The notes beneath the pieces were generated by a model. That model was not told the DNA's origin and ran no database searches. It saw nothing but the letters and a program-made list of their open reading frames with translations. From Gemmatimonadota bacterium (GTDB taxonomy: Bacteria > Gemmatimonadota > Gemmatimonadetes > Gemmatimonadales > Gemmatimonadaceae), in assembly GCA_947471365.1 (NCBI GenBank), contig CANIWQ010000008.1, positions 1 through 42,964 on the forward strand: a DNA stretch of 42,964 bases. Direction: 5' to 3'. The translations under genes were made by a program, and so were the position numbers. This document shows positions 36,461-42,964 of this stretch, piece after piece; the stretch's first letter is position 1, and every line of letters starts with the position of its first letter.

Positions 36461-37912
36461 ATGCTCCCCTTTGACTTTCGGCCTATCGCCGTCGCCGCGC
36501 TGTTCGTGCCGTTCGCTGCATTCACTACAACGTTGCGCGCGCAGGACACGCCCACCGAGCGCGCCGCCGGCGCCGACGTGGTGAAGCAGATGGCCGCGCT
36601 CCAACGCACCCTCGACGTGCCAGCCCTCGTGGCCAAGCTGACGGGCGCCAACCCCGCCCGCGACGCCATTGCCGCGCGCGCCAAAACATTGATGGACACC
36701 GAACTCCTCGCGATGGCCGACGACATCGCCCGCCATCCAGAGGTTGGCTTCAAAGAAGAACGTTCGGTGCGCGTGCTCACCGAGTACCTCAAAGCGCATG
36801 ACTTTGACGTGACCATCGGTGTCGCCGGACTGCAGACCGCCTTCGTGGCGCGCTACCGCCGCGGCACGCCGGGTCCGAATCTCGGCATCATTCTCGAGTA
36901 CGATGCGCTTCGCGGCACCACGGGCGACTTCCACGGCGACCAGCACAGCGCCCAGGGGCCAACGGGAATCGCTGCGGGGATTGCCGTGGCCGAGTTCCTC
37001 ACGCGGAGCAAGACGCCTGGCACCGTCACGTTTTACGGGACGCCCGCTGAGGAGATGATGCCACCGCCGTCCAAGACGGTGATGCACGAGGCGCACGTGT
37101 TTGATGGCGCTGACGTGATTGTCCGATCGCACTCCAGCATGGGAACGCAACGCGCCGCGCATGGATTTGGCTCGTGCTGCCTCAACATTGACGGAGTGAA
37201 ATACACCTTCTCCGGCGCGCCCGCGCACCAGATGACGCCGTGGGAAGGACGCGACGCGTTGACGGCCGCGATTCATCTGTTCAACAATGTGGACGCGATT
37301 CGCCGCAACCTGCGTCCCGAGGCGCGCATTCAGGGCATCATCACGGAGGGGGGCAAGGCGCCAAACGTCGTCCCCGATCGCGCGGTGGCCGATTTCTACG
37401 TGCGGTATCCGGACCAAGTCTACTTGGCGCAGGTGCGTGAGATGGTGGACAACGCCGCACGCGCCGCGGCACTCGCCACCGGCACGGTGGTGAAGATTGA
37501 ACCCTACGGCAGCATGCGCGACGGCATTTCGTCGGCCGCGCTCAATGAAGTGGCGTTCGGCTACCTCAAGAAATACGGCGGCACCAAAGTCCAAGACGAA
37601 CCGGGCAAGCCACAGGGCTTTGAAGAGACGGGGAGTGTATCGAGCGCCATTCCGGGGGTTGGGTTCTCCGCACACACCTCAAACGGCGGATTCCACACAT
37701 ACGAGATGGAAGCCGACGGGCTCGGCGCGGTTGGGCATCAGGGATTTGTGGTGGACGCGCAGGCGATGGCGTCGCTACTCTATGATTTTGCGACGCGGGC
37801 CGACTACCGCGCGGCCGTCAAGCGTGAGTTCGATACCACGCGCGCGCTGTTCAGCGCGTACATCTCGGCGCTCGACAAAGCGTATCCGAAGCCGGTCGTG
37901 AAAGCACCCTAA
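36461..37912 (+). CDS. Secreted M20D-family amidohydrolase (AbgB/IAA-amino-acid-hydrolase-like)
   Basis: The 483 residues start with a signal peptide (MLPFDFRPIAVAALFVPFAA, cleavage probably after LRAQ). The M20D features are DIARHPEVGFKEERS, the EYDALRG motif, GDQHSAQGPTGIAAGIA, general base in GTPAEEMMPP, and AHQMTPWEGRDALTAAIHLFN in the dimerisation domain. The C-terminal part is SAHTSNGGFHTYEMEADGLGAVGHQGF. Relatives cleave p-aminobenzoyl-glutamate, N-acyl amino acids or peptides; which applies is unknown. It lies 4 nt after the amidohydrolase, and a strong hairpin follows. Confidence 0.9.
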   Translation: MLPFDFRPIAVAALFVPFAAFTTTLRAQDTPTERAAGADVVKQMAALQRTLDVPALVAKLTGANPARDAIAARAKTLMDTELLAMADDIARHPEVGFKEERSVRVLTEYLKAHDFDVTIGVAGLQTAFVARYRRGTPGPNLGIILEYDALRGTTGDFHGDQHSAQGPTGIAAGIAVAEFLTRSKTPGTVTFYGTPAEEMMPPPSKTVMHEAHVFDGADVIVRSHSSMGTQRAAHGFGSCCLNIDGVKYTFSGAPAHQMTPWEGRDALTAAIHLFNNVDAIRRNLRPEARIQGIITEGGKAPNVVPDRAVADFYVRYPDQVYLAQVREMVDNAARAAALATGTVVKIEPYGSMRDGISSAALNEVAFGYLKKYGGTKVQDEPGKPQGFEETGSVSSAIPGVGFSAHTSNGGFHTYEMEADGLGAVGHQGFVVDAQAMASLLYDFATRADYRAAVKREFDTTRALFSAYISALDKAYPKPVVKAP

Positions 37913-37941
37913 GCACCCGCGCCGACACGCAGTGAAGGCCC

Positions 37942-37973
37942 CCAAGGGCCACCGCCCGCGCGGTGGCCCTTGG
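37942..37973 (+). terminator. Hairpin terminator between convergent genes
   Basis: The perfect 14-bp arms CCAAGGGCCACCGC and GCGGTGGCCCTTGG have a 4-nt loop. It lies between the M20D gene (ends 37912) and the BLUF-like gene (ends 37987 from the other side) and could serve both. The T-run is poor (CGTTCGT). Confidence 0.75.
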
Positions 37974-37986
37974 CGTTCGTCCGCAC

Positions 37987-38406
37987 TTACGTGACGGAAT
38001 CTCGAAAGCTCTGGAGAAATATTTCAGGCAACAGTCGCCGACGACTGGCCATTGACGGACCCGTCTCTGGGGGCAAATAGAAACTGCACGCGCCTTCCAC
38101 GACGAGACGTGATACGGATTGCCGATTGGTTCCGAAGGTCCACGTGGGATAATCGCGGACAGCGACCCTCCGATCCAGCAGCACTTCGACGCCGTCGGTC
38201 GGATTAAAGCTCACCGCGTAGCGCATCACCGCGTCGATCATGTCCGATTTGCCCTCGACGACGTGGATGAAATTCTCGCGACTACAGAGCAACACGCCTG
38301 TGACGTCAGTTCGCTCGCTCCACCCTTTCCACACGCGCACGCTCTCCACCAGTTCGCTATCGGTGAGCAATCTCACGAAGTGGCCGAGGTAGATCACCTG
38401 TCTCAT
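37987..38406 (-). CDS. BLUF-domain protein with altered flavin-site residues
   Basis: The 139-residue protein is one BLUF fold plus a short basic tail (RRRLLPEIFLQSF). Alignment by eye to AppA-like BLUF: RQVIYLGHF (Tyr kept), VTGVLLCSRENFIHVVEG (strand 2-3), then DGVEVLLDRRVAVRDYPTWTFGT. Where photoactive members have Asn (6 before the TG of the helix-strand turn) this one has Ser. The essential Gln of the FxQxLEG motif is His (FIHVVEG), and the Met after the Trp (WxM) is Phe. BLUF proteins normally bind FAD and sense blue light; here flavin chemistry may be lost or different. It stands alone, convergent to the M20D gene. Confidence 0.8.
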   Translation of the reverse strand: MRQVIYLGHFVRLLTDSELVESVRVWKGWSERTDVTGVLLCSRENFIHVVEGKSDMIDAVMRYAVSFNPTDGVEVLLDRRVAVRDYPTWTFGTNRQSVSRLVVEGACSFYLPPETGPSMASRRRLLPEIFLQSFRDSVT

Positions 38407-38493
38407 CAGTACCGATGTTCTGAAGAGGCCTACACGGCAGACAGAACTGCCCTCGAAGCCGAAGAGTAGATCGACATCGCGGCGAGCGCGATA

Positions 38494-38507
38494 CTAGACA
38501 CGTCTAG
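38494..38507. promoter_or_regulatory. Inverted repeat CTAGAC-AC-GTCTAG upstream of the BLUF gene
   Basis: Perfect 6-bp arms (38494-38499 and 38502-38507) with a 2-bp spacer lie 88 bp before the BLUF-like start. The form and place suit a dimeric regulator site, but no regulator is identified. Confidence 0.35.
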
Positions 38508-38700
38508 GCACGGGGCGCAATCCTGCGATCGCTCATGGCCCATTCTGGATCTGTGCACTGCGCGATCAATCGGTCAACGGGCACGGAGCCGAATGGCGCT
38601 CAGGAACGCGAGACAGACAGTGCTCTCAGAGAACGGTATCTTGTCCATCAGTTACTGCGATCGCGAGCCTCATGCAACGCTCACGGAATCGCCGCTGGGT

Positions 38701-38958
38701 TCACACGAAGCGTCTGTAGTCACGAGACTGGGCATCGAAGCCACGGGGCAACTCCCCGAAGACGGTCTCTGACTTGACGTGAAACACGTGTCCGGTACGC
38801 TGCGTAACGGCCGTCTACCGACGCTACGCCATCACCTGATCGATCACCTCGGGCGGCCCCTCCATCACGTGAATGACGTTCTCGACATTAAAGAGCATCC
38901 TCCCATGTGATCATCGGTAGTTACGGAGGAGCCGCTTTACTGGAGAAAGATGCGCTTG
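38701..38958 (-). pseudogene. Decayed second BLUF-domain gene
   Basis: One minus-strand frame reads QAHLSPVKRLLRNYR, stop, SHGRMLFNVENVIHVMEG, PPEVIDQVMA, stop, RR, stop, then a segment with ETVFGELPRGFDAQSRDY. The central part matches the intact neighbour (SRENFIHVVEG, KSDMIDAVMR), including the same His in place of Gln. Three internal stops and no N-terminal strand or start codon show it is broken. It is probably an old tandem duplicate or a relic of a related gene. Confidence 0.7.
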
Positions 38959-39183
38959 GCTTCCGGAAGCGTGAGACCGCGCTTCCGCGCGTATCCGATG
39001 ATCGAAGCTGCCGAAATTGCCGAGGGGACGGAGTTCTGCATCGAGGAGGCCGAGCCCAGTTTCGGCAAATCTTCATGGAAGAGTGCGTCGGCTCCGAATC
39101 GAGGAGACACTCGATGGACGCGTGATTATACGAACGCTGCCCCCAAGCAAAAGACCTCGCGCGTCGGCGACGCCTAGGACGCG
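38959..39183. other. Stretch without a recognisable gene
   Basis: Together with 38407-38700 this surrounds the BLUF relic, giving about 0.9 kb without an intact gene. Short open frames exist on both strands, for example 38593-38772 on plus (59 codons) and 38937-39110 on minus (57 codons, ending LPEAKRIFLQ), but none has a clear start, ribosome site or family match. I take the region as decayed sequence. Confidence 0.5.
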
Positions 39184-39242
39184 CGGCGGGCGGCGGGCGG
39201 CGGGCGGCGGGCGGCGGGCGGCGGGCGGCGGGCGGCGGGCGG
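39184..39242. repeat. Heptanucleotide microsatellite (CGGCGGG)8
   Basis: Eight perfect contiguous copies of CGGCGGG run from 39184 to 39239, followed by CGG. GGG runs at 4-nt spacing on the plus strand fit a G-quadruplex pattern. It lies about 80 bp before the next start codon (39321), within reach of the promoter or leader of that gene. Confidence 0.95.
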
Positions 39243-39320
39243 ACAATGCGCATTGAGAGCGCCGCAATGCCCCGTTCCGGAGGACTCGGCAATGCCCGCC
39301 TTTCTCGTTATCGTTATTCC

Positions 39321-40058
39321 ATGAGAATCGCACACGCGCTGTATCTCGTGTCAGCCGCCGCCGGGATGCTTGCGGCGCGGCCCGCACACTCGCAGGACGC
39401 TCGCACCGTCGTACTCCGCTTCCGTAAGACGGGCGACACGGTCGCTATTCGCAACGCGCAGATCACGATCGATCACACCATTGAAGCCGGGAACACCGAC
39501 TCGCTCGGCATGATCCGCGTCCCGGACCTCGATGATGGCGGCCACATTGTCGAGGCGGTCGCGCGCGGCTACCAGGCCTACTTCGACAAGTTCACGAGTG
39601 GTCCGAACGTTCGTATGCCGATCGAGCTCGAGATCCTCGCCGTCGAAGTGGCGATGAAGCCGAAGGGACAGCCAACCGAGCTTACCGTTGCTGGGTTTGA
39701 TCAACGGCGCGCGAAGGCGCAGGGAAAGTTCTTTACTCTCGCGCAGCTCAAGGCGGCGGACGGCCGGCCGCTCGCGAATCTGCTGAAGGTCGACGCTGGC
39801 GCTGCAATCGCCACAGGACCGCGCGGTGCATCTGTCCTCGCCGCGGGAGCCGCGCCGAGTGACGGCGGCGCCTGTTATGCCGCCGTGGTCCGCGACGGCC
39901 TTCGCATCTATCCGTTCGAGAGCGCCACGCCGCCCGATTTAGATAAAATCTTCACCGATGATCTCACGGGCGTCGAGTTCTACGCGCGCGCCTCACTCGC
40001 GCCCGCCGAACTCAAGGACGTCGCGAGCTGTGGCGCTCTGGTGCTCTGGAAGCGATAG
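39321..40058 (+). CDS. Secreted protein with carboxypeptidase-regulatory-like and TonB-plug-like parts, no barrel
   Basis: The 245 residues from ATG 39321 open with a signal peptide (MRIAHALYLVSAAAGMLAARPAHS). An N-terminal beta-sandwich (about 28-110) has IRNAQITIDHTIEAGNTDSLG and EAVARGYQAYFDKF, similar to carboxypeptidase-regulatory domains. The C-terminal third (GPRGASVLAAG, CYAAVVRDGLRIYPF, LTGVEFYARASLAPAELKD, CGALVLWKR, two Cys) resembles the end of TonB receptor plugs, but no barrel follows. I cannot name a function; a periplasmic adaptor or remnant receptor are options. Upstream frame to 39246 runs into the microsatellite and has no family support. A terminator follows. Confidence 0.7.
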   Translation: MRIAHALYLVSAAAGMLAARPAHSQDARTVVLRFRKTGDTVAIRNAQITIDHTIEAGNTDSLGMIRVPDLDDGGHIVEAVARGYQAYFDKFTSGPNVRMPIELEILAVEVAMKPKGQPTELTVAGFDQRRAKAQGKFFTLAQLKAADGRPLANLLKVDAGAAIATGPRGASVLAAGAAPSDGGACYAAVVRDGLRIYPFESATPPDLDKIFTDDLTGVEFYARASLAPAELKDVASCGALVLWKR

Positions 40059-40082
40059 TCACCGACCGCACCGATTGAAGCA

Positions 40083-40118
40083 CGAAGGGCGCCCCCGCAT
40101 CGGGGGCGCCCTTCGTTT
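40083..40118 (+). terminator. Intrinsic terminator between convergent genes
   Basis: The arms CGAAGGGCGCCCCCG and CGGGGGCGCCCTTCG form a perfect 15-bp stem with a 3-nt loop, then TTTA on the plus strand. It closes the 39321-40058 gene and lies 22 nt before the end of the convergent LVIVD gene. Confidence 0.85.
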
Positions 40119-40139
40119 ACATCGTGGTGGCGGTGCGGA

Positions 40140-42011
40140 CTACTTCGCCGCCGCCAACCGCCGGATCTCACCGGCCATCGTCTTCACCCGGGCACCGTCC
40201 TTGGCACCCTTCGCGTCGCCATCGACCTGCGACGCGAGCGCGTTCAGAGCCGCGGCACGCGCCGCACCGGACTTCATCTCCGCTGCGTCGAGCGCGTCGG
40301 AAATCGCCGTGGTACGGTCGACGGCAAGGCCGCTCCCACGCACCAACTGGTCGAGGTATGACCGCACGACCACAAACGCCGCCGGCCAGATCATCTTCGG
40401 CTGGCTCTGCGGATTGTACTCCGTGAACGTGACCAGCTTGGCCGCTGCAATCTCGTTGGCCGAGAGCTGCGCACTGGGCGTCAGCTCATAGATATCCAGC
40501 CCACGATCAAGCTCGGACGAGTAGACCATTCCGTTCCAGTAATACGCACCCCACGAACCGCCGATCGTCCCACTGCTGCGGCGCGCGCCGGCCGCCTGAC
40601 CGGCCATTGCGGCCGTCGGGACGTCCGCACCGGCCGGCGGATCGATCGAGCCGCGATCGAAGTAGGCGATCTCAAAGGCATTGTCCTGGTCCGTGAAGTC
40701 CATCACGTCCACGCCGCCCTGATACCAGCCCTGCACATAGAGGTCACGCCCCGGCACAGGAATAATGCCGCCGTTATGCGAGACGCAATTCTCTTCCGCG
40801 GACTGCGCCGCCGGAAGCTTGAAGTAGCCATGCTGGGCCTGCTTCTTTTTTGCATCGACGGAGATGATCGTGTTGCCGCCGAGTTCCTTCATGCTCGAGG
40901 CCTGGCACATCGGGCCCGTGCCCCCGCCCCACTCGTCCGTCTGGATCGTCTTCTTGCCGTCGTTGCTGAACGCGGCGGTGTGACGGCCCTGGAAGTTGTT
41001 GGTGTCGGCCAGCGCGTCGAGACGCACAGGCTTTTCGGGATTCGAGATGTCCACGAGGATCGCGTGCGTGGAGCAGGACGCCGAGAGCAGATGGAGTGCT
41101 GGGTACGCTGTGACGTCGTGGCAGTTGCGCGGACCCGTAGGTGCCGGCGCGGCCGCTGGCGCTGCGGCATCACTCGGAGCACCTGCTGCTCCGCCACGTC
41201 CGCGACCACCCGCCGCACGGTTCGGGTTCACCGGCATGCAGAACTGCACGCACGTGCCGCCACCATCGAGGCCCGTAAAAATGCGCGCGCCCGAAATCAC
41301 CACAGCCTGCTCGGGGTGATTGAGGGGCACCTTGATGATATCGAGCTGATACAGCGAGTTCGTTGGGTCAGCCGGATCCGTGCCATTCTTACAGCCGGCG
41401 AGTTCAGTCTCGGGACGAGCAGCCGACTGTCCCGACACATAGAGATAGATGATGTTCGCGTCCGTCGGGCTGGGCACAACGGTGTGCGTGTGCGAGCCTT
41501 TGCAGGTCTGCACGTTCTTGACGAGCTTGGGCGCCTTCGGGTTGGTGACGTCGAAGATGCGCACGCCCGCCATGTGGTCCTTGGGGTCCTGCACGCCACC
41601 CTTCCCGCAATCATTGCGGTTGCCCGCGCCTTCGGCGGAGATGAAGAGCAAGTTGCCAACGATCGACGGGTCGCCCTGCGACGTGATGCACTCGACGACC
41701 GAGGCGAGTGTCGGCTTGGCGGTGTCGGTGATGTCCCAAATCGTGAAGCCGGCGAAGTTCGCCTGATACACGAAGTGGGTGCCGAAGGCGAGGTCCGAGT
41801 TGATGAAGGTCAGGCCGCGGACCGTGTCGAACTGCGCCGGCTTCTTGGAGAACGAGACGAGGCGCATGTTGCTGGCGGCCACGCCGGCGTCAAATCGGCC
41901 CGACTTGAGGGTGGTGCGAGGATCTTGGGCGCTGGGGTAGGTCTGCGCCGACGCCATGCTCGGCGCAACGAGAGTTACCAACAATAGCAGCCATAGTCGG
42001 ACAACGCGCAT
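40140..42011 (-). CDS. Secreted LVIVD-repeat beta-propeller-like protein
   Basis: The 623-residue exported protein has a signal peptide (MRVVRLWLLLLVTLVAPSMASA). Repeated segments of LVIVD type, such as FAGFTIWDITDTAKPTLAS, MAGVRIFDVTNPKAPKLVKN and HAILVDISNPEKPVRLDAL, suggest a beta-propeller. Many Cys residues and His-rich patches (SHTHTVV, GRHTAAFS) occur. A Gly/Arg then Ala/Pro-rich insert (RAAGGRGRGGAAGAPSDAAA) lies near residue 265. The C-terminal ~80 residues are helical (DALDAAEMKSGAARAAALNAL). Function is unknown; LVIVD proteins are surface or periplasmic and ill-characterised. It follows the DUF305 gene by 81 nt, so the two are probably one unit. Confidence 0.8.
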   Translation of the reverse strand: MRVVRLWLLLLVTLVAPSMASAQTYPSAQDPRTTLKSGRFDAGVAASNMRLVSFSKKPAQFDTVRGLTFINSDLAFGTHFVYQANFAGFTIWDITDTAKPTLASVVECITSQGDPSIVGNLLFISAEGAGNRNDCGKGGVQDPKDHMAGVRIFDVTNPKAPKLVKNVQTCKGSHTHTVVPSPTDANIIYLYVSGQSAARPETELAGCKNGTDPADPTNSLYQLDIIKVPLNHPEQAVVISGARIFTGLDGGGTCVQFCMPVNPNRAAGGRGRGGAAGAPSDAAAPAAAPAPTGPRNCHDVTAYPALHLLSASCSTHAILVDISNPEKPVRLDALADTNNFQGRHTAAFSNDGKKTIQTDEWGGGTGPMCQASSMKELGGNTIISVDAKKKQAQHGYFKLPAAQSAEENCVSHNGGIIPVPGRDLYVQGWYQGGVDVMDFTDQDNAFEIAYFDRGSIDPPAGADVPTAAMAGQAAGARRSSGTIGGSWGAYYWNGMVYSSELDRGLDIYELTPSAQLSANEIAAAKLVTFTEYNPQSQPKMIWPAAFVVVRSYLDQLVRGSGLAVDRTTAISDALDAAEMKSGAARAAALNALASQVDGDAKGAKDGARVKTMAGEIRRLAAAK

Positions 42012-42092
42012 CGGAGCACACTCCAGTGGTGGGTCAGGGACTGACGGAACGCCGGTTGCGGCGCGGAAGCTCTGGAAACGAAGTTCGAGCGC

Positions 42093-42719
42093 TTACTTCG
42101 GGGGGAGCTTGGCCATCAGGCCGCGCATGATACCAATCTCACCCGTCTGCGCCGTCACGACATCGTTGGCGAACACGGAGACATCGACTTCCTGCCCTGC
42201 GCGCGGTGACTTGAAGAGGTCGTCGACCATCGTCAGTGCGCCCGCGTGGTGCATGATCATGAACGTCAGGTAGGCGCGATCGAAATCGACCCCCTTCGAG
42301 TTCTCGAGTTGCGTGAGCTGCGCATCGGTCAGCATCCCATCCATCCGCACGTGGTGCCACGACGCCGTGTCGGGCGCAAACTGGTTGTTGCGCTCCAACC
42401 ACTTCTGCATGATCTGGATTTCGGGAATCTGCGACTGGTCAATCTTCTTCGAGAGCTTGAGCACCTGCGCGTTGGCACCGCGGGAGTCCGCCATCCGTGA
42501 CATCACAATCGCTTGGGCGTGGTGCGCGATCATCCCTTGCATGAACTCAACATCGGCTTTCGTATAGATCGCGCCCGCAGGGATCACGATCTCGGGGCCC
42601 ATGTGCATGTGATCCATACCGCGCATGCCGGCCATGCCGCCTTGGGCGGACGCCGTCGACGATACGCCGGCCAGCGAGGTACAAACCGCGACTACAAGTA
42701 GTGAGCGGAGGGTCAACAT
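42093..42719 (-). CDS. DUF305-domain secreted protein
   Basis: The 208-residue exported protein has a signal peptide (MLTLRSLLVVAVCTSLAGVSSTASA). It is a ferritin-like/helical DUF305 protein with paired His motifs: QGMIAHHAQAIVMSRM and FMIMHHAGALTMVDDL, plus a Met/His-rich N-terminal stretch (MAGMRGMDHMHMG). DUF305 proteins are often tied to copper or other metal handling, which the Met/His motifs would fit, but this is inference. GGAG lies about 11 nt before ATG 42719. It is upstream of the LVIVD gene on the same strand. Confidence 0.85.
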   Translation of the reverse strand: MLTLRSLLVVAVCTSLAGVSSTASAQGGMAGMRGMDHMHMGPEIVIPAGAIYTKADVEFMQGMIAHHAQAIVMSRMADSRGANAQVLKLSKKIDQSQIPEIQIMQKWLERNNQFAPDTASWHHVRMDGMLTDAQLTQLENSKGVDFDRAYLTFMIMHHAGALTMVDDLFKSPRAGQEVDVSVFANDVVTAQTGEIGIMRGLMAKLPPK

Positions 42720-42905
42720 GTCGAGTGTGCTCCGTCAGTGTACCGACCCAGACATCGGGCCGGGAGGATGCGGGAACCGTTCAGGACCTACGAGAAGCCT
42801 AACGATACAGCGTAAGCGCACTCGACACTAGGCGGCGGCCACCGCGTCGCGTGAAGCGCCGGACTGAGATGGACTGGGTTGGGTAGACACCATTCTTCTG
42901 TTTTA

Positions 42906-42964
42906 TGCCGAGGCTGGGAATCGAACCCAGATGGGATTACTCCCAAGGGATTTTAAGTCCCTCG
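42906..42964 (-). tRNA. tRNA-Leu(UAA), 3' part
   Basis: On the minus strand the anticodon arm AGGGA-CTTAAAA-TCCCT gives anticodon UAA. A long variable arm (TTGGGAGTAATCCCA) marks class II. The T arm CTGGG-TTCGATT-CCCAG and acceptor strand CCTCGGC plus discriminator A follow. The 5' half (acceptor and D arm) is beyond the right edge. CCA is not encoded (TAAA follows). The 186 nt between it and the DUF305 gene show no gene. Confidence 0.93.

Follow-up and report, generated by a model that had tools for sequence, protein, structure and literature searches.

BLUF proteins and the flavin site

BLUF photoreceptors have a ferredoxin-like fold with the order beta-alpha-beta-beta-alpha-beta. Their hallmarks are a bound FAD and a light-induced red shift of 10-15 nm, and a Tyr serves as electron and proton donor to the flavin. 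Short BLUF proteins bind their partners via the face of the beta-sheet and the C-terminal helix. In the structure of OaPAC, Gln48 adjoins flavin N5, Asn30 binds N3/C4=O and Asp67 binds the ribityl O2'/O3' (PMC11533990). The Gln is part of a strand with the motif FxQxxEG. Natural BLUF proteins without this Gln are encoded on plasmids of the Microbacteriaceae Curtobacterium and Frigoribacterium and have Gly instead. They keep Tyr and Asn and match the BLUF family strongly (89.5 bits). The Curtobacterium protein also keeps the D-x-R-H motif; the Frigoribacterium frame is partly changed. At the Gln site both read CLG(I/V)LEG, and Met is kept (L050 601-876 in Curtobacterium, L049 601-996 in Frigoribacterium); the Curtobacterium frame continues for about 200 residues past the domain. 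TEX47, a subunit of the sperm axoneme, is orthologous to the BLUF-domain protein MOT7 (PMC11779644, PMC10266980). It may serve as a precedent for the structural use of a BLUF-like protein. The sequence logos of a BLUF survey left out sequences without functional residues (PMC4844311). Since BLUF surveys discard such sequences, proteins of the kind described here are overlooked.

Predicted loss of flavin contacts in a short BLUF protein

The window, i.e. the whole stretch of 42,964 nucleotides analysed here, contains the following BLUF-related features:

37987..38406, minus strand: gene of a variant short BLUF protein of 139 aa, based on an open reading frame (ORF) with ATG start, Pfam, phmmer and alignment; residues 1-91 are the BLUF domain, followed by the C-terminal helix-like tail LLPEIFLQSFRDSVT
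38263..38265, minus strand: codon of His48 (Gln in canonical BLUF), from the alignment; common to the relative G063 and the relic
38317..38319, minus strand: codon of Ser30 (the flavin-binding Asn in canonical BLUF), from the alignment; Cys in G063
38827..38904, minus strand: relic of another BLUF copy, spanning 26 codons, FNVENVIHVMEG, found by six-frame translation, with stop codons on both sides

Judged by its sequence, the 139-aa ORF is a genuine BLUF homologue. It matches the Pfam BLUF family (PF04940) with 37.7 bits (cut-off 25, E 2.2e-9) and covers profile positions 1-91 of 92, which places it in the family. In phmmer searches it matched OaPAC and other BLUF structures (E 1.2e-5), the best solved relatives being OaPAC, BlrB, bPAC and AppA. 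Its GC content by codon position (0.58/0.44/0.71) is typical of coding genes. PF04940 scores are bimodal, with 87-111 bits for canonical domains versus 38-39 bits for the window protein and one other. A partial match to PF24787 (TEX47) lies below the cut-off (E 0.0014, about 50 residues) and shows no special relationship to TEX47/MOT7, which are eukaryotic and belong to another context. Structure prediction with AlphaFold2 using one and three sequences yielded pLDDT values of 37 and 38, below usable confidence, and the fold assignment therefore rests on homology. The element order of the second model (pLDDT 38), E H E E H E E, fits that of BLUF; a Foldseek search with this low-confidence model gave no match.

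Like the short BLUF proteins of the PixD/BlrB/BlsA type (PF04940), the window protein has homology over the full domain, stands alone with about 140 aa, ends in a helix-like tail and carries Tyr and Trp. Unlike them, it has Ser8, Asn30, Gln48, Asp67, Arg69, His70 and Met92 replaced. It shares the natural absence of Gln with the Microbacteriaceae plasmid BLUFs, which in contrast to it keep Tyr and Asn. The sequence-only reading of this DNA had noted a retained Tyr and the changes of Gln to His, Asn to Ser and Met to Phe. Alignment to OaPAC bears this out: Tyr6 is Tyr, Asn30 is Ser, Gln48 is His, Trp90 is Trp and Met92 is Phe. Further residues are lost: Ser8 is replaced by Gly, Asp67 by Phe, Arg69 by Pro and His70 by Thr, so that the D-x-R-H motif after helix 2 reads F-N-P-T. 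The most economical alignment of this motif has no gap, and the alternative with a one-residue gap is also devoid of D-x-R-H. The strands with Asn and Gln align without gaps; therefore, a Gln moved elsewhere in the protein, for which the alignment was also checked, was rejected. Lys29 and Arg63 were rejected as informative losses, too, as both vary among canonical relatives.

The same columns were read in 48 BLUF domains from genomes of the phylum to which the window genome belongs. Ser8, Asn30, Asp67, Arg69, His70 and Trp90 are invariant (48/48). Gln48 is found in 47 domains and Glu in one; at position 92, 42 domains have Met and six have Leu. Tyr6 is present in all but one, in which the frame is cut by the contig end. 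Besides Tyr6, the window protein retains only the Trp of these columns. Since Asn30, Gln48 and Asp67 are all replaced, the alignment indicates that both the ring and the ribityl contacts to the flavin are missing.

Single residues differ in some other BLUFs: L023 (G281:C254:20048-20320) is a natural, otherwise canonical BLUF with Glu for Gln48, equivalent to the laboratory mutant AppA Q63E, which has been described as pseudo-lit, and the long-frame BLUFs of genus g4 (open frames of 356-398 aa; L148, L155, L156, L158, L159, L160) have Leu at Met92.

The sequence-only reading had also considered different flavin chemistry, i.e. an altered pocket that still binds flavin, in which His48 replaces Gln and supports a different photochemistry or redox chemistry. 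Tyr6 and Trp are kept, His48 occurs in all three copies and a Tyr-His pair near flavin N5 is imaginable; furthermore, Lys29 and Arg63 are unconserved even in canonical relatives. However, this idea is weakened, because not only the isoalloxazine contacts are gone but also the complete D-x-R-H motif with its ribityl-binding Asp, which like Asn30 is invariant in the 48 relatives. In G063, which has the same His, the Tyr codon is out of frame, and known BLUFs are inhibited in photoactivation when Gln or Tyr is removed (PMC3915823). With the entire pocket lost, altered flavin chemistry is unlikely.

Alternatively, loss of Gln might lock the protein in the signalling conformation and make it a constitutive mimic of the lit state, permanently bound to a partner. 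Slr1694 Q50A and AppA Q63E have been described as pseudo-light-excited, and BlsA Q51A behaves in the dark like the illuminated wild type (PMC6695109). These Gln mutants keep flavin or turn insoluble, whereas here the pocket itself is lost. In addition, there is no known partner, and no regulatory gene adjoins the ORF. A lit-state mimic is possible but improbable.

Two variant copies and a relic

Among 18 genomes of the genus, the only relative of the variant was found in G063 (45-47% identity), so that it is present in 2 of 18 genomes including that of the window (G000). Nothing closer than ordinary BLUFs was detected in 179 genomes of the family and 394 of the class or, with the Pfam model, in 288 genomes of the order. 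Scans of genome contigs and viral contigs yielded no further members of the variant, tblastn against phage records found none, and tblastn with the variant against plasmid records returned other BLUF proteins only. A search of viral contigs for BLUF domains to extend the alignment found two. A weak match of the relic in G258 turned out to be a chance match inside a histidine kinase gene, and a weak PF04940 match in G068 was not confirmed. Thus, the genomes searched hold two full-length variant copies, one of them frameshifted.

The G063 copy carries His48, Phe92, Cys30, Glu67, Ala69 and Thr70. Directly after its Tyr6 codon there is one extra base, located outside any homopolymer run. Because of this base, and unless it is a sequencing error, the G063 sequence gives a reading frame without the first strand including Tyr. 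The window and G063 copies have in common the motifs CxREN(F/I)IHVVEGK and WTFGTNR, which are not seen in canonical BLUF, and EIFLxxFRxS in the tail. In the tree, the pair is fully supported and sits on a stem of 2.2 substitutions per site, compared to a median terminal branch of 0.32.

A relic with the same His near the gene had been reported from the sequence, and this holds: on the minus strand, 38827-38904 reads GRMLFNVENVIHVMEGPPEVIDQVMA and includes the equivalent of His48. With a profile of the two variants it is the second-best match in the six-frame translation of the window (i-E 1.1e-5); with a canonical profile it reaches an i-E of 0.023, the next best being 0.73. The search for homologues of the His variant thus returned the G063 copy plus this relic. 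As both share the His and G063 also the Phe, the earlier view that the change is a feature of the lineage and not a one-off error is supported.

Selection between the copies and the preferred reading

Comparison of the G000 and G063 copies over 88 codons gave pS 0.67 and pN 0.29 (Fisher p 2.3e-7), values that measure selection over the whole history of the pair and say nothing of the function of the window copy today. The two proteins share 47 identical residues versus 30.8 +/- 3.1 under random redistribution of the same base changes. None of 5000 random placements reached 47 identities, and 83% created a stop. Protein-level constraint in this lineage is clear. Because both copies carry His48 and Phe92, it is most simply assumed that constraint continued after the shared changes from Gln to His and Met to Phe. 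The flavin-holding positions 30, 67 and 69 differ between the copies, whereas the three motifs named above are shared, a pattern expected of a protein kept for a use other than flavin binding. Between the two BLUF copies, dS (about 1.3-1.4) is far higher than in the adjacent M20 gene (0.28); the copies may therefore be old paralogues or separate acquisitions instead of orthologues.

The reading preferred here, to which a probability of about one half is assigned, is that of a flavin-free, light-blind BLUF derivative that was once used as a protein and is now decaying patchily in the genus. With the flavin pocket dismantled, this short stand-alone BLUF protein most likely folds without FAD and is blind to light. 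It would retain the ferredoxin-like BLUF fold and could act as a constitutive protein-binding module via the beta-sheet face and the C-terminal helix. The variant gene appears to be dispensable and on its way to be lost across the genus, as a frameshift interrupts the copy in G063 and only a relic is left of the second one in the window. A BLUF fold used without light had been proposed before, and it is the best-supported reading, since a comparison of two Gln-less copies reveals selection on the protein. Decay, which had not been considered, is relevant as well: G063 has a frameshift in its copy, and the variant is known from no more than two genomes.

The chief alternative is an incipient pseudogene. 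In this case, a formerly canonical or modified BLUF would have escaped selection, its frame would be open by chance and the missing residues would reflect decay. The occurrence of the variant in only 2 of 18 genomes of the genus, the frameshift in G063 and the dead second copy in the window are in agreement with this, as are the location in a variable segment that is absent from genome G091 and the lack of a visible strong ribosome-binding site upstream of the ATG. However, 139 codons are open, protein-level constraint is strong between copies that both have His48 and Phe92, and the same His in three copies is unexpected under random decay. Simple pseudogenization is thus possible, if somewhat unlikely. 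Tentatively, one might go beyond the preferred reading and propose a flavin-free, light-blind subfamily in which His48 and the WTFGTNR strand form the core of a new conserved site; once the chromophore had been lost, this subfamily would have been selected for a new function such as binding of a ligand, a metal or a protein.

If the preferred reading is true, a natural photoreceptor domain has outlived its chromophore, and the protein would reveal which elements of the BLUF fold persist for partner binding after light sensing has been lost. For such variants, the annotation 'BLUF domain protein' would wrongly predict light sensing.

A variable segment next to tRNA-Leu

The borders of the segment that holds the variant gene, and a possible trace of integration, are:

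36461..37912, plus strand: gene of an M20-type peptidase/amidohydrolase, which delimits the variable segment on its near side and closes the block common to the window and G063
38718..38743, strand not assigned: weak vestige of a tRNA-Leu gene, from its 3' part (81% over 26 bp; E 0.011, weak alone)
42906..42964, minus strand: 3' portion of a tRNA-Leu(TAA) gene, truncated where the contig ends, which delimits the variable segment on its far side

The window is collinear with G063 at 92.9% over bases 1-37971, and this block stops just before the BLUF gene. In G091, tRNA-Leu(TAA) and then tRNA-Gly come 15 bp after the M20 gene, without BLUF. The distance between the M20 gene and tRNA-Leu thus amounts to about 5.0 kb in the window, 1.57 kb in G063 and 15 bp in G091. 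The tRNA-Leu part at 42906-42964 has 93% identity with its counterpart in G091 and 88% with the one in G063. Integration at a tRNA gene usually leaves a partial copy of the 3' part of the tRNA as a scar. The remnant at 38718-38743 lies inside a stretch of 155 bp that is 73% identical to G063, and G063 contains a clearer copy of the tRNA-Leu 3' part (L039 6436-6482, 47 bp, 89% identity). The BLUF variant family sits in a turnover zone adjoining tRNA-Leu.

Between the M20 gene and tRNA-Leu (37912-42905), the window contains, in addition to the BLUF gene, a 270-aa ORF that matches no Pfam family, an LVIVD-like ORF of 623 aa and a DUF305 gene; the corresponding 1.57-kb segment of G063 carries a LEA_2 gene. 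A perfect tandem repeat with 8.6 copies of the 7-mer GCGGCGG is located at 39183-39242, between the relic and the next gene.
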